Shown here: piece by piece, positions 4,394 to 27,703 of the stretch
Numbering within the stretch: the stretch's first letter is position 1
How the letters are laid out: each line of letters starts with the position of its first letter
Assembly: GCA_024698075.1 (NCBI GenBank)
Contig: JAILRP010000100.1
Location: 1 to 42,364 of the forward strand
Reading direction: 5' to 3'
From: Lachnospiraceae bacterium
GTDB taxonomy: Bacteria; Bacillota; Clostridia; Lachnospirales; Lachnospiraceae
DNA length: 42,364 bases
Translations under genes and position numbers: made by a program
The notes under the pieces: model-generated
What the model was told of the DNA's origin: nothing
The model's input: only the letters and a program-made list of their open reading frames with translations
Database searches by the model: none

Positions 4394-4822
4394 ATGAATA
4401 CATATATGCCAAACGAAGCCACTATCGAACGCAAGTGGTATGTCGTTGACGCGGCTGGATGTACTCTCGGCCGCCTGGCTGCAGAAGTTGCCAAAGTTTT
4501 AAGAGGTAAGAACAAACCTATCTTTACGCCCCATGCCGATACGGGTGACTGCGTCATCATAATAAATGCCGACAAGGTCACATTTACGGGCCGCAAGCTC
4601 GATCAGAAGATTTATTACCATCATTCTGAATATGTCGGCGGCATGAAGGAGACAAAGCTCCGCGATAAGTTTGCCCAGGCCCCTACTGAGGTTGTGGAAC
4701 TTGCTGTCAAGGGAATGCTTCCCAAAGGACCTTTGGGCCGCAGGATGTACAAGAAGCTGTTTGTTTATGCAGGCAGTGAGCATCCCCATGCAGCACAGAA
4801 GCCTGAAGAGTTGAAGTTTTGA
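4394..4822 (+). CDS. rplM: 50S ribosomal protein L13
   Basis: 142 residues, the normal bacterial L13 length. Family-typical stretches are visible: [17 protein letters not shown] near the N-terminus, [29 protein letters not shown] and [21 protein letters not shown]13 is an early-assembly protein of the large subunit. GGAGGT lies eight bases before the ATG. It is followed 32 bp later by rpsI, the usual bacterial rplM-rpsI pairing, expressed from the consensus promoter at 4266-4294. Confidence 0.97.
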
Positions 4823-4854
4823 CCGGTAAGCTTTCATAAAGGAGAAGAAAGAAA

Positions 4855-5253
4855 ATGGCTAAAGCAAAAGAGCAGTTCTACGGAACAGGAAGAAGAAAAT
4901 CATCCGTTGCAAGGGTATACATGAAGCCCGGCAAAGGAAATATAACGGTAAATAAGAGAGAACTCGACGACTATTTCGGACTCGAGACATTAAAGACGAT
5001 AGTACGTCAGCCCCTCGTTGCTACGGAAACAGAGAAGAAGTACGATATCAACGTTAACGTCAAGGGCGGCGGAACAACAGGACAGGCAGGAGCTATCCGC
5101 CACGGCATCGCAAGGGCTCTCCTTAAGATCGATGAGGACTTCCGTCCCACGCTTAAGGCAGCGGGCTTCCTTACAAGGGACCCGAGAATGAAGGAAAGAA
5201 AGAAGCCCGGTCTCAAGGCCGCAAGGCGTGCGCCTCAGTTCTCAAAGAGATAA
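4855..5253 (+). CDS. rpsI: 30S ribosomal protein S9
   Basis: 132 residues. Family hallmarks include [13 protein letters not shown] near the N-terminus, [21 protein letters not shown] in the middle and the basic tail ending in QFSKR, whose last residues reach the P-site tRNA in the ribosome. GGAG precedes the ATG. It is the last gene of the rplM-rpsI operon, directly followed by a strong terminator at 5275-5306. Confidence 0.97.
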
Positions 5254-21745: not shown

Positions 21746-22810
21746 ATGAATATGAGTCCCGAAACTATCGCGCAGTACAAAGGAGTATATGTATTTGCAC
21801 AGCAGGTAGACAATAAGGTGAGCGGAATCGCTTACGAACTTTTAGGAAAGGCAAGGGAGCTTGCCGAGCCTCTGAAGACAGATGTTACCGCGGTCCTTAT
21901 CGGATCCGGAATCAAGGATCTTGCAGACAGCCTTGCTGAGTATGGTGCAGACAAGGTCATAGTTGTGGATGATCCCGAACTTAAGGAATACAGGACTGAG
22001 CCTTATGCACATGCGCTTGCTTCAGTCATCAACGAGTACAAGCCCGAGATCATGCTTGTCGGCGCAACGGCGATCGGACGTGACCTTGGCCCTACCGTTT
22101 CGGCAAGGGTTGCAACAGGTCTTACGGCTGACTGTACGGTGCTCGACATAGGTGATTTTCCGCTTCAGCCCATTCTCGGCAAGGAAGATGAGCAGCTTCA
22201 CAACCAGCTCCTCATGACGCGTCCTGCATTCGGTGGAAACACGATCGCTACGATCGCGTGCCCTTACAACCGTCCTCAGATGGCAACGGTACGTCCCGGC
22301 GTTATGCAGAAGATCGAGCCCAAGAAGGGTGCAAAGGCAGAGGTTATCGAGTACAATCCCGGCTTTACGCCTGATAACAAGTACGTTGAGATCAAGGAAG
22401 TCGTCAAGGCTGTATCGGATGTCAAGGATATCATGGATGCCAAGATCTTAGTCTCAGGCGGACGTGGAGTAGGTTCTCCCGAGAACTTCAAGATTCTTGA
22501 AGATCTTGCCGCAGCGATCGGCGGACAGGTTTCATGCTCACGTGCGGTAGTCGATTCAGGATGGAAGCCCAAGGAGATGCAGGTAGGCCAGACAGGCAAG
22601 ACCGTACGTCCCAACGTATACTTTGCGATCGGTATCTCAGGTGCCATCCAGCACGTTGCCGGCATGGAAGAGTCGGATATAATCATCGCCATCAACAAAG
22701 ATGAGGATGCTCCCATATTCGATGTTGCCGATTACGGCATCGTAGGCGACCTTAACAAGATAGTTCCGAAGCTCACAGAAGAGATCAAGGCTGCGGCTGC
22801 TGCCAAGTAA
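21746..22810 (+). CDS. etfA: Electron transfer flavoprotein, alpha subunit
   Basis: 354 residues. The N-terminal half carries GVYVFAQQVDNKVSGIAYELLGKAREL and LVGATAIGRDLGPTVSARVATGLTADCT. The C-terminal FAD domain has SGGRGVGSPENF, GGQVSCSRAVVDSGW, QVGQTGKTVRPNVYFAIGIS and IAINKDEDAPIFDVADYGIVGDL, all typical of EtfA. It completes the electron-bifurcating partner of Bcd. ATG 21746 and 21752 are both possible starts; the first is kept because of the GGAAAGTGG upstream. A strong hairpin follows it before ptb. Confidence 0.95.
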   Translation: MNMSPETIAQYKGVYVFAQQVDNKVSGIAYELLGKARELAEPLKTDVTAVLIGSGIKDLADSLAEYGADKVIVVDDPELKEYRTEPYAHALASVINEYKPEIMLVGATAIGRDLGPTVSARVATGLTADCTVLDIGDFPLQPILGKEDEQLHNQLLMTRPAFGGNTIATIACPYNRPQMATVRPGVMQKIEPKKGAKAEVIEYNPGFTPDNKYVEIKEVVKAVSDVKDIMDAKILVSGGRGVGSPENFKILEDLAAAIGGQVSCSRAVVDSGWKPKEMQVGQTGKTVRPNVYFAIGISGAIQHVAGMEESDIIIAINKDEDAPIFDVADYGIVGDLNKIVPKLTEEIKAAAAAK

Positions 22811-22841
22811 AGCGCCCTGCCTGAAGGAAGTTAAGCAATGC

Positions 22842-22874
22842 GCAGGCCATGACAGGCAGGCTGTCATGGCTTGC
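22842..22874 (+). other. Strong intercistronic hairpin between etfA and ptb
   Basis: GCAGGCCATGACAG (22842-22855) pairs with CTGTCATGGCTTGC (22861-22874), 14 bp with one G-U and a 5-nt loop. There is no T-run after it, so it is not a standard terminator. It probably acts in mRNA processing or stability between the Bcd-Etf genes and ptb-buk. Confidence 0.75.
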
Positions 22875-22904
22875 ATTAGTGATTTGATAGGAGTGAATTG
22901 AGAA

Positions 22905-23822
22905 ATGGTTAAGAATTTTGATGACCTTCTTGCCAAGATCAAAACGATCAGCAAAAAGAAGGTTGCTATTGCTGTAGCACAGGACAAGGCCGTTCTTGAG
23001 GCCGCAAAGGCTGCAAAAGAACGTGACATCGCAGATGCCATCCTCGTGGGAAATGAAGCCGAGATACGCGCGATCGGTGCGGAACTTGGAATGAACATGG
23101 ATGACTATGAGATCATCAACGTTGAGGATGAGGCCGAAGCCGCTACAAAGGCAGTATCGATAGTATCCGAAGGAAAGGCCGACATTTACATGAAAGGACT
23201 TCTTCCGACCGGAATGTTCTTAAAGAGCGTGCTCAACAAGGAAGTGGGACTCCGTACGGGAAAGCCTCTTTCACACGTATGTGTCATCGAAGTGCCCAAG
23301 GTTGACAGGGTCCTGTTCTTATCGGATGTTGCTTTCATGCCGTATCCCACGCTTGAGGAAAAGAAGTGCATCATAGAATACACGGCCGATGTCGCAAAGG
23401 CATGCGGAGTGGAAAATCCCAAGGCTGCCGTTGTATGCTGCACGGAGACCGTCAATCCGAAGATGCCCATCACGGTTGAAGCTGACGAACTTTCCAAGAT
23501 GCAGGACAAAGGAGAGATCGCAAACTGTATCGTAGAAGGCCCTCTTTCGCTTGACATCGCCCTGTTCCCGGCCGCTGCCGAGGAAAAGGGAGCTATGGAC
23601 CGCAAGGTTGCGGGAGACGCGGATATCCTCATATTCCCCGATCTCCACGCTGGAAACCTCGTATACAAGTGCATGACTCAGGTTGTCGAGAACATGAAGA
23701 ACGGCTGCATTCTCACCGGAACGAAGGCACCTGTCGTCCTCACGAGCCGTGCGGACACATTTGAGACAAAGGTCAACTCCATTGCACTCGCAGCGATCGT
23801 TGCCCATGAACTGAAGAAATAA
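22905..23822 (+). CDS. ptb: Phosphate butyryltransferase
   Basis: 305 residues, the usual Ptb length and of the phosphate acetyl/butyryltransferase family. Visible blocks: KKVAIAVAQDKAVLEAAKAA, DIYMKGLLPTGMFLKSVLN, VEGPLSLDIALFP and DILIFPDLHAGNLVYKCM. It converts butyryl-CoA to butyryl phosphate. Following gene buk finishes the pathway with ATP formation. The stop codon (23820-23822) overlaps the first bases of a REP-like palindrome. Phosphate acetyltransferase is the alternative in the family, but the position before buk supports butyryl specificity. Confidence 0.93.
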   Translation: MVKNFDDLLAKIKTISKKKVAIAVAQDKAVLEAAKAAKERDIADAILVGNEAEIRAIGAELGMNMDDYEIINVEDEAEAATKAVSIVSEGKADIYMKGLLPTGMFLKSVLNKEVGLRTGKPLSHVCVIEVPKVDRVLFLSDVAFMPYPTLEEKKCIIEYTADVAKACGVENPKAAVVCCTETVNPKMPITVEADELSKMQDKGEIANCIVEGPLSLDIALFPAAAEEKGAMDRKVAGDADILIFPDLHAGNLVYKCMTQVVENMKNGCILTGTKAPVVLTSRADTFETKVNSIALAAIVAHELKK

Positions 23823-23855
23823 TGTGTCATAGGGACGGTTCTTTTGACACATTTT
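23821..23855. repeat. REP-like palindrome R1 (between ptb and buk)
   Basis: Arms AATGTGTCA (23821-23829) and TGACACATT (23845-23853) enclose a head containing GGGACGGTTCTT. It overlaps the ptb stop codon and ends 26 bp before the buk start. It is nearly identical to the reverse complement of R4 at 26152-26189. Confidence 0.88.
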
Positions 23856-23880
23856 GAAAAATTACATGAAGGAGATAAAC

Positions 23881-24948
23881 ATGGGATTAAAAAGTTTGAT
23901 AATAAATCCGGGCTCCACATCGACCAAGATCGGAATATTTGAGGATGAAAATCTTCTGTTTGACGAGACTCTTCGTCATTCGACTGAAGAGATAAGTTCC
24001 TATGAGTCGATTTTTGCACAGAAGGATTTCCGCAAGAATATCATACTGAATTTCCTGAAGGAGAAGAACTTCGACATCAATTCGCTTGACTTTGTCGTCG
24101 GGCGCGGCGGAATGTTGAAGCCCATTCCCGGAGGAACATATGAGGTGACAGATGCTCTCCTTGAGGACCTCAAGGTCGGAGTCCAGGGACAGCATGCATC
24201 AAATCTCGGAGGCATACTTGCAAGAGAGATCGGTGACAGCCTCAAGATACCTTCATACATCGTTGACCCCGTTGTCGTTGATGAGATGATGGATATCGCA
24301 AGATATTCGGGATGCCCGCAGCTCCCGAGGGTCAGTAAGTTCCATGCCCTGAACCAGAAGGCGGTCGCAAAGCGGTACGCCAAGGAGACCGGCAGGAAAT
24401 ACGAGGACCTGAACCTCATAGTCGTTCACATGGGCGGCGGATGTTCGGTAGGACCTCACAAGAACGGAAAAGTCATTGATATATTCAATGCGCTTGACGG
24501 CGATGGTGCCTTCTCACCCGAGCGTGCAGGTGCGGTTCCTCCCGGGGAACTCGTAAAGCTCTGCTTCTCAGGCAAATATAACGAGAAGCAGGTTTATAAG
24601 ATGCTTGTCGGAGAAGGCGGATTCAATGCTTATCTTGGCACGAACGACATGAGAAATGTCGACAAGATGATAGACGAGGGAAATGCAGATGCCAAGAAGT
24701 ACAGGGATGCATTCATCCTTCAGATGGCCAAGGACATAGGCTCTATGGCATGCGTTCTTGAGGGAAAAGTAGACCAGATAATCGTAACCGGAGGCATCGC
24801 GTATGACAAGGCGGTAGTCGAAGGGCTTAAGCAGCGCTGCGAATGGATCGCTCCCTTCACGGTATATCCTGGCGAGGACGAGCTTTTAGCGCTTGCACAG
24901 GGCGGACTTCGCGTCATGAACAAGGAGGAAGCCGCAAAGCCGTACTGA
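23881..24948 (+). CDS. buk: Butyrate kinase
   Basis: 355 residues from ATG 23881, chosen because AAGGAG lies seven bases upstream and the product starts [18 protein letters not shown], the family's ASKHA phosphate-1 motif. Other typical blocks: [43 protein letters not shown] (acetokinase family signature) and [15 protein letters not shown]. It transfers phosphate from butyryl phosphate to ADP, yielding butyrate and ATP. A longer upstream frame runs into the REP element and lacks an RBS. It ends the butyrate operon; a REP-derived hairpin with T-run follows. Confidence 0.95.
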
Positions 24949-24972
24949 TACGGTATTTGCTTCATATGGAGA

Positions 24973-25021
24973 GTGTGTCAAAGGTGTGTCAAAGGGACGG
25001 TTCTTTTGACACACTTTTTTT
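24973..25021 (+). repeat. REP-like palindrome R2, doubling as buk terminator
   Basis: GTGTGTCAAA (24984-24993) pairs with TTTGACACAC (25005-25014) around the GGGACGGTTCT head, then a run of seven T. This is a convincing rho-independent terminator. The left arm plus one base (GTGTGTCAAAG) is duplicated immediately upstream at 24973-24983. Same orientation as R1. Confidence 0.88.
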
Positions 25022-25241
25022 GTTATTTCAAAGATCATGAATTCTTTTTTTTTTCTCCTCTTTCTTAGTTATCGTTGATTTCATATTGATATCGTGATAT
25101 AGTCCGATTAGTCGGAGATGACGTTCTCCAACCATTTTATTGTTCATATCAATTCCTGCTCCAGATTGCAGTCGGATCCGACGATTTCTTATCGCCAAAT
25201 CCCAAGAAAAAAACGAAACAGCATAGTGTAAAACGTTTACG
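25022..25241. other. AT-rich gap without a gene, between R2 and R3
   Basis: About 220 bp with no credible coding frame on either strand. It contains a perfect 12-nt palindrome GTCGGATCCGAC (25171-25182), a small inverted repeat TCCGA/TCGGA (25103-25116) and homopolymer runs. It is clearly richer in A/T than the neighbouring genes. A promoter for the transposase gene is presumably here but none could be picked with confidence. Confidence 0.6.
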
Positions 25242-25266
25242 GTGTGTCAGAAGAACCGTCCCTGTA
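25242..25266. repeat. Partial REP-like element R3 (upstream of the transposase)
   Basis: GTGTGTCA then AAGAACCGTCCC: the arm and head of the same element in inverted orientation relative to R1 and R2, but the second arm is missing and the transposase RBS begins instead. The arm variant (GTGTGTCA) matches R2 rather than R1/R4. Confidence 0.82.
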
Positions 25267-25280
25267 GAAGGAGGTGCAAA

Positions 25281-26099
25281 TTGCCAAGAACTGCCAGAAA
25301 CATTCTTGAAGGAGGATACCGTCATGTCATTGTGAGGGGTATCGGAAAACAGATACTGTTCGAAGATGAGAAGGACAACGGATTTTTCCTCAGATTGCTC
25401 AAAAAATACAGTCTTGAGACAAATGTAAAAGTTTGTGCTTATTGCCTGATGGAAAACCATGTTCACCTGCTTATCCATGATCTTGCAACGGATACAGCGG
25501 TTTTCATGAAGAAGATAGGAGTCAGTTATTCCGCGTATTTCAACAAAAAATATGAAAGAACGGGCCATCTGTTTCAGGACAGATATAAAAGTGAAAATAT
25601 ATCTGACGAAAGAGGATATCTGACAGTGCTGCGTTACATCCTTCGAAATCCGGAAAAAGCAGGATTCTGCAGAACAGAGGAGTACAGATGGAGCAGCTTC
25701 AGCTCATATGAAGATGCGACCTCTTTTCTTGAACAAACGCTGACGTGGAGGCTGTTTGAGAACAGGGCCTCTTTTCGTGATTTTATTTTATGGAATAATC
25801 CGGAACACGGAACGGAGGACGGAATGGAACCGAAAAACAGCACAGAACTGGAAAACGGAATGGAACCGAAAAACAGCACAGAATTGGAAAATGGCATGGA
25901 ACCGGATGGCAGGATGGATGACGGAATGGCCAGAAAAAAGATAAGGGATTGTCTGGGGGTCCAGTCCGGGACAGTACTTCAAAGTTATGGAAGAGCGGAA
26001 AGAAACAGGGCATTAAGAGAGCTTAAGAACAATGGACTTACCATAAGGCAGATTGAAAGGCTGACCGGCATAAATCGTGGAGTGATCCAAAGGGCGTAA
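25281..26099 (+). CDS. REP-associated tyrosine transposase (RAYT; IS200-like Y1) with C-terminal HTH-like tail
   Basis: 272 residues from TTG 25281, chosen because AAGGAGGT (25268-25275) is six bases upstream; a frame starting earlier would begin inside REP element R3. The Y1 domain begins PRTARNILEGGYRHVIVRG, carries the metal-binding HVHLL (His60, His62) after CLMENH, and a likely catalytic Tyr in the SYSAYFNKKYERTGHLFQDR block. In this family one strand of short palindromes is cut and joined via phosphotyrosine. Residues about 181-210 are a 12-residue in-frame tandem repeat (GMEPKNSTELEN). The tail (ERLTGINRGVIQRA) resembles a helix-turn-helix. It is flanked by REP-like copies R3 and R4. 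It appears intact. Confidence 0.9.
   Translation: MPRTARNILEGGYRHVIVRGIGKQILFEDEKDNGFFLRLLKKYSLETNVKVCAYCLMENHVHLLIHDLATDTAVFMKKIGVSYSAYFNKKYERTGHLFQDRYKSENISDERGYLTVLRYILRNPEKAGFCRTEEYRWSSFSSYEDATSFLEQTLTWRLFENRASFRDFILWNNPEHGTEDGMEPKNSTELENGMEPKNSTELENGMEPDGRMDDGMARKKIRDCLGVQSGTVLQSYGRAERNRALRELKNNGLTIRQIERLTGINRGVIQRA
25821..25910 (+). repeat. 36-bp in-frame tandem repeat inside the transposase gene
   Basis: Two full copies (25821-25856 and 25857-25892) and half of a third. Each encodes GMEPKNSTELEN. The full copies differ by only two bases near their ends, so the duplication looks recent. It links the Y1 domain to the C-terminal tail. Confidence 0.9.
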
Positions 26100-26151
26100 A
26101 CCAAAGAACAGAATCAAAGGTCGAGAACTAAATGGCGGAAAATGGGCCTGG

Positions 26152-26189
26152 AAAATGTGTCAAAAGAACCGTCCCCATGACACATTTTT
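26152..26189. repeat. REP-like palindrome R4 (downstream of the transposase)
   Basis: AAAATGTGTCA (26152-26162) and TGACACATTTT (26178-26188), 11-bp perfect arms with a head containing AAGAACCGTCCCC. The T-run after the right arm lets it work as a terminator of the transposase gene. Orientation is opposite to R1 and R2. Confidence 0.9.
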
Positions 26190-26191
26190 GA

Positions 26192-26221
26192 TTGCTCCGG
26201 GGGGAGAAATCATGTTATACT
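26192..26221 (+). promoter_or_regulatory. Extended -10 promoter for the 134-residue protein gene
   Basis: TTGCTC (26192-26197), an 18-bp spacer and TATACT (26216-26221) preceded by TGT. It begins three bases after REP R4 and 37 bp before the start codon. Confidence 0.5.
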
Positions 26222-26257
26222 TTCAAATGTATATCTACATTTTTCAGGAGGGTACAG

Positions 26258-26662
26258 ATGGAGAAGGAAGTAGGTTGTTTTAAGGTTTGGACCGACGAGG
26301 GAGGCCGCAGGATCGTATATTCAAGAGGAAGGGGCATTGCACATGCCCATGAGATCGCATGGCTTTATGAAACGATAGTTGAGTTTTCGAAGGAGTGGCA
26401 TGACGACAAGGGTTTTGTATATATGGCATTCATCGAGGATCTCGAACAGGTGAGCCCGAAGGGCAGTATCCAGTATGTTGAGCTCCACCGCAATCTCGAG
26501 GCATGCGGATGCAAATACATCGCATATATCGAGGGCAATTCCTATGAGGTTTCTGTCCAGTCTTATAAGCATAAACAGATGAGCAATACACCGCGTACCC
26601 AGAACCGCTACTTCCCTACGCAGTACGAGGGGCTGGCTTGGTTTGAGGAGATGGGATTTTAA
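26258..26662 (+). CDS. Small cytosolic protein of unknown function
   Basis: 134 residues from ATG 26258, supported by CAGGAGGG ten bases upstream; an upstream in-frame start lacks an RBS. No signal peptide, no membrane segment. Composition is aromatic and charged: YSRGRGIAHAHEIAWLYETI, then KGFVYMAFIEDLEQVSPKGS, then a Cys pair (EACGCKYIAYIEG) and an end NRYFPTQYEGLAWFEEMGF. The alternating strand and helix pattern around WLYETIVEFSKEW and KGFVYMAFIEDL is loosely reminiscent of STAS/SpoIIAA-like folds, but I do not recognise the family. It is followed nine bases later by a methyltransferase gene, likely co-transcribed. Confidence 0.7.
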   Translation: MEKEVGCFKVWTDEGGRRIVYSRGRGIAHAHEIAWLYETIVEFSKEWHDDKGFVYMAFIEDLEQVSPKGSIQYVELHRNLEACGCKYIAYIEGNSYEVSVQSYKHKQMSNTPRTQNRYFPTQYEGLAWFEEMGF

Positions 26663-26671
26663 GGACGGATC

Positions 26672-27703
26672 ATGAGCGTTAAAAAGAAATACAGTAAACC
26701 GTTTGGTGACCTGAACAGTTTAAAGACAAGTTTTTTTGATGATAACGACGGAATGCTTAAAATGGCTGACGGCATGGCGGATGTCCTGCTCATGCAGCCG
26801 CGCCGCAGCGTATGCAAGATATGCGGTGCATCTCTTGGCAGGCCGCTTTATACGAGCCACCGCATCGGCTACATCACATGCAGCAGATGCGGGCATCTTA
26901 ACAGCGAATGTGAGGACACCGACGAGTTTGCGAGTCGCGTCTACGTCGAGGATGACTACTCGAAGAACTACAGCGCCGCGGACAAAGAGAATTACATCAG
27001 AAGAAGGGATATGATCTACATCCCGAAGGCGGAATACCTTCGCGACTGTCTGAAGCATGAAGGAATGGACGCATCGGATGCTGACATTCTTGACATAGGT
27101 GCCGGATGCGGATACTTTGTGTCCGCTGTAAGGGAACTTGGCATGACGGCATCGGGGATAGATGTTTCGGAGAGCGAAGTCAGGTTCGGGAATGCAATGA
27201 CCCCTGAGCCGTGGCTTACTCACGTGGGGCTCACGGATTCGATAGACTATATCAGTAATACATCCGCAAATATCCTGACTGCAATAGGCGTTCTGGAGCA
27301 TCTCGTGCATCTTGACGAAAACATTGAAGCGATAAGGTACAATTCGAACATCAGATATGTATTTGCATCGGTTCCGATGTTCTCATTCTCGAGCTGTTTT
27401 GAGGTCGCTTTTCCGAACGGGTACAACCGCCACACGGGAGGCACCCACACGCATCTGTTCACGAATGAGTCCGTTGAAGAGATGGCAGAGCACATGGGCT
27501 TTGAAGTTGCGTATGAATGGCGCTTCGGATCCGACATCAACGACCTATACAGGTTCCTGATGGTGTCAATGCAGAAGAATGACAACGAGGAGTTCTCAAG
27601 GTACTTTTCTGACAGGTTCGTGCCGCTCATGGATGAGCTTCAGCAGGTCCTCGACCGGAGCGAGTTCTCATCCGAGCTGCATTTTATCCTGAGGAGAAAA
27701 TAA
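26672..27703 (+). CDS. Zinc-ribbon class I SAM-dependent methyltransferase
   Basis: 343 residues. A zinc-ribbon-like element uses Cys48/Cys51 (CKIC) and Cys70/Cys73 (CSRC), then a Rossmann methyltransferase core with motif I ILDIGAGCGYF (Asp141 region), IDVSESEV and an LTAIGVLEHL motif. The C-terminal part (YNRHTGGTHTHLF and after) is typical of the Methyltransf_12/C-methyltransferase group. An N-terminal Zn site plus this core occurs in sugar C-methyltransferases, but there are no nucleotide-sugar genes nearby, so the substrate is unknown. A weak SD (AAGGACGG) precedes the ATG, which follows the small unknown gene by nine bases. It is ended by a clear terminator. Confidence 0.8.
   Translation: MSVKKKYSKPFGDLNSLKTSFFDDNDGMLKMADGMADVLLMQPRRSVCKICGASLGRPLYTSHRIGYITCSRCGHLNSECEDTDEFASRVYVEDDYSKNYSAADKENYIRRRDMIYIPKAEYLRDCLKHEGMDASDADILDIGAGCGYFVSAVRELGMTASGIDVSESEVRFGNAMTPEPWLTHVGLTDSIDYISNTSANILTAIGVLEHLVHLDENIEAIRYNSNIRYVFASVPMFSFSSCFEVAFPNGYNRHTGGTHTHLFTNESVEEMAEHMGFEVAYEWRFGSDINDLYRFLMVSMQKNDNEEFSRYFSDRFVPLMDELQQVLDRSEFSSELHFILRRK

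Follow-up and report, generated by a model that had tools for sequence, protein, structure and literature searches.

The RAYT gene and its flanking repeats

The window analysed here is the whole of a 42,364-nt stretch of contig JAILRP010000100.1 (positions 1 to 42,364, forward strand) from the Lachnospiraceae bacterium assembly GCA_024698075.1; it carries a gene for a REP-associated tyrosine transposase (RAYT) that lies among four short repeats (R1 to R4) in a butyrate gene set. RAYTs are regarded as domesticated transposases that maintain populations of repetitive extragenic palindromic (REP) sequences. It is proposed that the window repeats belong to a population of hairpins resembling REPINs (REP doublets forming hairpins), which is probably moved by a RAYT closest to TnpAY1 subclass 2.1 (TIRYT).

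R1 (23821..23853, plus strand) reads as the hairpin AATGTGTCA-(TA GGGACGGTTCT TT)-TGACACATT, with a z of -5.0 for its fold as single-stranded DNA (ssDNA), and it overlaps the ptb stop codon, whose last two bases are its first two. R2 (24973..25018, plus strand) comprises a hairpin, GTGTGTCA...TGACACAC (24984-25014), a duplicated arm in front of it (24973-24983) and a T run behind. R4 (26152..26189, minus strand) is again a hairpin, AATGTGTCA-(TG GGGACGGTTCT TT)-TGACACATT, and R3 (25242..25263, minus strand), about 18 nt before the RAYT start, is a half element consisting of the core and a TGACACAC arm. As ssDNA, R1, R2 and R4 folded better than all 200 shuffles on both strands (z -4.6 to -5.4), and R1 and R2 are also strong folders as RNA. 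No hairpin was found for R3, whose fold is no better than that of shuffles (z 0.25 and 1.03) because the 5' arm is missing. A sequence-only reading had described four palindromic copies, with buk between R1 and R2 and the RAYT gene between R3 and R4; the positions confirm where the two genes lie, and places and orientations agree with the description for all four repeats, folds for R1, R2 and R4, R3 being a half copy. The same reading had spoken of REP-like elements and of a complete REP/RAYT unit; a canonical kind of REP is not supported: the GT[AG]G foot of canonical REPs is absent from R1, R2 and R4, as read from the sequence of these three elements, and the constant motif forms the hairpin centre in each of them.

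The RAYT gene (25281..26099, plus strand) starts with TTG and encodes a 272-aa HUH/Y1-type protein with NHVH at residues 59-62 and Y119 in the motif YILRNP (Pfam Y1_Tnp, E 4e-12; NCBIfam REP_Tyr_transpos, 52.4 bits, below the cut-off of 80). In an alignment of 16 RAYT proteins it displays the motifs ENHVHLL and HLFQD (the FQ motif), and H60, H62, Y119, N123 and P124 are invariant in all 16. The top PDB fold match of its AlphaFold model (predicted local distance difference test, pLDDT, 83.7) is 4er8, in which the E. coli RAYT sits on a REP hairpin (TMt 0.73, 15% identity); this bears out the earlier call of a RAYT-type protein. The model places C-terminal, helix-turn-helix (HTH)-like helices at residues ~238-271. 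This region is conserved in the alignment; at E 0.1, HTH_23 is matched in 7/16 and HTH_28 in 4/16 of the proteins, and the window protein matches MarR_2 only (E 0.0012, below cut-off). The linker between the Y1 and C-terminal domains has, to judge from the DNA, been lengthened by a 36-bp in-frame repeat (25814..25921, plus strand; two good copies and a partial third). This insert is not in the other 15 aligned proteins, save for a few residues in one, and model confidence is low over the linker repeat (residues 175-208). An IS200/IS605 insertion sequence, with a tnpA of about 150 aa and several near-identical copies, was rejected as an identity, the window protein having 272 aa and being the single Y1_Tnp match in the window genome. 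Among 50,697 phage records one had a relative at E 1e-5, as did 14 among 72,556 plasmid records, all below 60% identity; relatives so few and distant give no sign of a recent spread of the RAYT gene by phages or plasmids.

Dispersed hairpins with a near-constant core and free arms

The window genome (G000; 2.49 Mb in 105 contigs) contains 33 copies of the exact core GGGACGGTTCT, compared with 2 of the reversed control. GTGTCA or TGACAC arms accompany 25 of the 33 cores, at least 5 of 6 arm pairs form in 24 of the 33, and the dispersed copies carry the same arms as the copies flanking the RAYT gene; those on contigs C8, C99 and C104, with 3, 1 and 1 arm pairs, look like chance. Close inverted pairs with 8-14 nt between them lie on C38, C50, C51 and C105, and a further group lies on C29. 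Contig C93 (L020) holds three copies of a composite (at about 1325-1595, 2604-2870 and 4587-4855) with hairpins at both ends in the same '+ ... -' frame and a 212-215 bp interior that is similar among the copies. The REPIN-like pair on C50 was not found behind the corresponding gene in any of 10 aligned relatives; G269, which alone is similar on both sides, shows an empty site, where the sequence continues past the stop codon and includes about 14 nt peculiar to G269, and the C50 element, like R1, starts at the stop codon. No fixed target sequence was seen beside the repeats by eye at selected places. The earlier reading had called for a search for the element elsewhere in the genome and in relatives, where it does recur, and the inverted pairs agree with the REPIN-like arrangement that it had envisaged. 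On C29 (L013, 4395-4486), three cores carry TTCGCACA/TGTGCGAA arms that differ from those of the other copies in the genome; they may represent a second family of arms or one that is coming in.

The element architecture was analysed in 140 elements, taken as the nearest GGGAC on each side of a RAYT gene and not selected for pairing. Watson-Crick pairing at arm columns -4 to -8 amounts to 58-76%, against 27-41% with dealt-out partners, and from column -9 outward it lies within the shuffled range. The pairing axis is on core base 6 (75%, against 22-29% in 14 other registers; 122 elements with GGGAC[AG]G), and stems of at least 6 occur in 31 of 70 loci, whereas 200 shuffles gave 3.4 on average and never more than 8. 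The left half of the core, GGGAC, is constant by the way the elements were selected, so that shuffles cannot test pairing between the two halves; the right half varies (GTTCT is commonest, with GGTTC, GTCCT, GGGTT and GACCC also present) and can in most cases pair with the left half when G-T is counted. Arms at the places chosen are specific to the genome: ACCAGG/TGGTA in G045, GAGTCA and GAAACG in G009, GAGACA and GAAACA in G254, and GGGACC/GGTCCC in G256. Gene-side and dispersed arms are the same in G045 and in the window genome, two genomes of four. No protein residue stood out as tracking the core variant among 113 RAYT proteins (16 loci with GGGACAG against 69 with GGGACGG; GGGACAG in 16 of the 92 loci whose core was labelled, the remaining 21 of the 113 having none), the best mutual information, 0.38, falling in a variable column.

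Close opposite elements are paired in one direction. Where places were listed, in seven genomes only, neighbours within 120 nt are arranged '+-' 24 times and '-+' 0 times, with 4 '++' and 5 '--' cases. RAYT genes mostly lie inside the same '+ ... -' frame as the close pairs; the order in the window is R2 '+', R3 '-', the gene and R4 '-'.

A scan of named genomes yielded at least 592 pattern matches, and the best 80 RAYT loci were used; these are the closest relatives of the query rather than a random sample, many of them from metagenome assemblies with possibly misassigned contigs. Leaving aside eight loci that lack 350 nt on one side, GGGAC[AG]G lies within 350 nt in '+' orientation upstream of the gene at 58 of 72 loci, in '-' orientation downstream at 56 and in both places at 50, and the core density is 3.65 per kb near the RAYT gene versus 0.48 per kb beyond 1 kb. 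Titles of the locus records include Lachnospiraceae, Butyrivibrio, Syntrophomonas, Desulforamulus and Bacillus, and single records titled Prevotella, Bacteroidales, Treponema, Coriobacteriaceae, Desulfaltia and Atribacteria also have the core by the RAYT gene. In some relatives (RAYT flanks of L086 and L092), a hairpin precedes GGGACAGACC instead of enclosing it, perhaps a second element layout.

The gene and the repeats also co-occur across genomes. In a phylum sample of 398 genomes (RAYT profile at E 1e-10; cores counted as exact GGGACGGTTCT), a RAYT match is present in 69 of 82 genomes with at least 10 cores and in 61 of the 316 others (odds ratio 22), and all 21 genomes with at least 40 cores match the profile. 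A family sample of 250 genomes gives a strong match (E under 1e-79, limits set after the data had been seen) in 9 of 15 genomes with at least 10 cores versus 13 of 235 others. Within the genus (37 genomes, two with gene fragments being left out of the medians), the median number of cores is 33 in the 15 genomes with the gene and 4.5 in the 20 without it. Genome G034 (C14, L098) has 61 cores and a shortened RAYT of 139 aa with NHAH instead of NHVH; the repeats may outlast the gene.

Insertions in the butyrate genes

The genes upstream of the RAYT locus encode a thiolase, an enoyl-CoA hydratase, a 3-hydroxyacyl-CoA dehydrogenase, an acyl-CoA dehydrogenase and two electron transfer flavoprotein subunits, followed by ptb (phosphate butyryltransferase; 22905..23822, plus strand; TIGR02706, E 2e-122, 407.8 bits, just below the cut-off of 410.5) and buk (butyrate kinase; 23881..24948, plus strand; TIGR02707, E 2e-155, above cut-off). 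The two latter genes are co-directional, with R1 between them. Among 36 genus relatives, 27 have an alignable ptb-buk spacer; an element at the place of R1 is present in G279 only and no such core occurs there in the other 26 of 27, bearing out the earlier proposal of an insertion between ptb and buk. Longer ptb-buk spacers with other sequence and without the core were seen in other species of the genus, at L141 and L143 (G251, G261) and at L153 and L154 (G269, G262).

Behind buk, the distance to the next gene is 153 nt in G284 and 1309 nt in the window. At this place a native hairpin followed by a T run is present in G284, and similarity to the window resumes beside R2 and R4. Read from the empty site of this one relative, the RAYT gene sits in a putative insert of about 1.2 kb that is bounded by R2 on the left and R4 on the right and includes R3 (24972..26190, plus strand, bounds good to a few bases). 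A RAYT gene lies behind buk also in G279 (75% identity) and G282 (68% identity). By this comparison of sequences, R1 is one insertion and R2 and R4 bound another. Two nested inverted pairs had been put forward as a possible record of successive insertions; because R1 is separate and shared with G279, and the insert is bounded by R2 and R4, the nesting describes map order and not insertion history. The terminator-like site in R2 perhaps replaces the native hairpin and T run behind buk. A small gene behind the insert (26258-26662) has no Pfam or NCBIfam match, and similar sequence is present in several genus relatives.

Proposed mechanism, alternatives and relation to known systems

We propose that the repeat is a short hairpin with a near-constant, strand-specific core, GGGAC[G/A]G (most commonly GGGACGGTTCT), at its centre, and that its 5-6 bp arms would be free in sequence provided that pairing is kept. 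Repeats facing each other (GGGAC-> ... <-GTCCC) would be the ends of a unit, whose filling may be 8-14 nt, about 212 nt as on C93, or the RAYT gene. The Y1 enzyme would bind the hairpin in ssDNA, cut near its foot and join the strand at another place, in some cases at least a stop codon, and the repeats would be copied by this protein. Since the constant letters stand at the hairpin centre, we infer that GGGGAC is what the enzyme reads in that position and that any stem would do so long as it is paired, the arms being recognised by shape more than by letters. In the available text of one study (PMC8266576), Y1 enzymes of IS200/IS605 and TnpAREP bind ssDNA hairpins and choose their cut sites via a short adjacent guide. 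When a group 3 REP had its stem exchanged for the complementary sequence, cutting changed only moderately in that study, a result that fits arms read by shape.

Several observations weigh against this proposal. R3 forms 2 of 6 arm pairs, its 5' arm being missing, which is why it is counted as a half element. The full '+ gene -' arrangement is missing in 22 of the 72 flank-counted loci, and no core oriented as expected was present within 350 nt at 9 of the 80 (L190, L207, L220, L232, L233, L244, L254, L256 and L257). Neighbours up to 1500 nt apart include 2 '-+' cases beside 31 '+-' ones. The single gene-side copy seen in G256 shares only the left arm with the dispersed copies, and that in G251 differs from them in its core ending (GGGACGGAGTC) as well as in its arms. 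The co-occurrence statistics ignore kinship, 13 of the 82 high-copy phylum genomes have no RAYT match (among them G515, G286 and G652), G193, with 25 cores and no gene, and G266, with 44 cores, are exceptions within the genus, and of the 130 genomes that have the gene, 61 contain fewer than 10 copies of exact GGGACGGTTCT, some of them using other core endings.

Were the repeats ordinary intrinsic terminators or regulatory RNA hairpins, with the RAYT gene among them by chance, the terminator-like structure of R2 behind buk (18 pairs and a T run), at the very place of the native hairpin in G284, and the strong RNA folds of R1 and R2 would be expected; terminator-like sites in the region number 3, against a shuffle mean of 2.1. 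R1, however, stands between two co-directional genes and is absent from nearly all aligned relatives, no Rfam family scores over threshold at 22800-27000, and the common core with private arms, the 24 to 0 polarity and the gene co-occurrence would be left unexplained; we regard this explanation as very improbable. That the gene is a relic, the repeats having been spread by something else and the association reflecting shared ancestry, is suggested by genomes with many repeats and no gene and by G034, which has a shortened gene only. This sits poorly with the profile match in every phylum genome with at least 40 cores, with the intact catalytic residues in all 16 aligned proteins and with the lack of any other Y1 match in the window genome, and it too appears distinctly unlikely.

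A plain inverted-repeat transposon, or TIRtron, would have its terminal inverted repeats (TIRs) serve as double-stranded sites for the C-terminal HTH, the hairpins having no role. The published TIR motif GGGGWSAS (PMC3733652, available text) resembles GGGGAC[A/G]G; compared with it, R4 reads GGGGACGG (G for A), and in R1 and R2 GGGAC is preceded by A or T-A. The conserved C-terminal region, HTH-like in several relatives, and the single end polarity common to RAYT genes, composites and close pairs point the same way. The predicted Y1 fold, on the other hand, is closest to the hairpin binder 4er8, and the free arms are complementary within each element about one fixed axis, which points to pairing inside one strand; we consider the transposon explanation unlikely. 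If the hairpins with constant core and free stem are indeed the substrate of subclass 2.1 enzymes, they would make it possible to test directly how a Y1 enzyme distinguishes sequence from shape, and they would serve as a marker of repeat populations among gut Bacillota. They would also be a case of such repeats moving into the ptb-buk butyrate genes, with a potential effect of R1 and R2 on the transcripts.

The occurrence of similar gene-repeat pairs in other bacteria suggests a little-studied kind of mobile repeat. The sequence-only reading had expected as much, and this fits two open surveys, which in their available text report TIRs (PMC3733652) or no REP-like sequences (PMC6006769), much of the literature lying outside what could be searched. 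Within the open-licence literature searched, a fixed-axis core with free private stems, one-way pairing and gene correlation was not found; titles and abstract starts gave no treatment of RAYT repeats in Bacillota and, for four spellings of the core, no paper on REPs.

According to the parts of the 2018 survey that were available (Quentin 2018, PMC6006769), subclass 2.1 of TnpAY1 corresponds to RAYT group 1 and is the largest non-IS RAYT class, with no known substrate there and no REP-like sequences found near its genes. The window protein resembles it in the NHVH and FQ motifs, in its length and probably in the extra C-terminal domain, which is HTH_23/HTH_28-like in several relatives. It differs in having YILRNP and not the listed YIELNP or Y[IV]HLNP, and is therefore called closest to subclass 2.1 and not filed in it. 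The TIRYT/TIRtrons (Di Nocera 2013, PMC3733652), as set out in the text available, are likewise RAYT-like genes flanked by inverted repeats; GGGGWSAS is reported there for several of these. Part of the TIRs belong to repeat families, in which they occur singly or in pairs, and self-complementarity is reported for some. Both this class of transposase and inverted repeats bearing a GGGG-type motif thus have an earlier description in that paper. The same text gives no obvious correlation of tyrosine transposase genes with REP/TIR families and reports TIR families in few genomes, whereas the repeats of the window type are hairpins with free arms and a fixed core axis, whose copy number follows the gene in the phylum sample.

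The REPIN/RAYT systems of Pseudomonas and E. coli, as far as the available text of the reports goes (PMC3116915, PMC2817692, PMC8266576, PMC8049555), share with the present one the inverted hairpin pairs, the small number of RAYT genes and the dispersed copies; unlike theirs, R1, R2 and R4 are without the GT[AG]G foot and have the constant motif in the centre. CGTC-tagged REPs (PMC3733652, available text) are alike in that the complement of the core contains CGTC; their CGTC is terminal and unpaired, their tails are often CCA, and no transposase is associated with them. This identity was rejected, CGTC of the complement being central in the window elements. We would give even odds to the view that the repeats make up a third major REP type, next to those with GTAG and CGTC, which would have a constant central core, free stems private to each lineage and RAYTs with an HTH-like tail, the enzymes for which surveys list no REPs.

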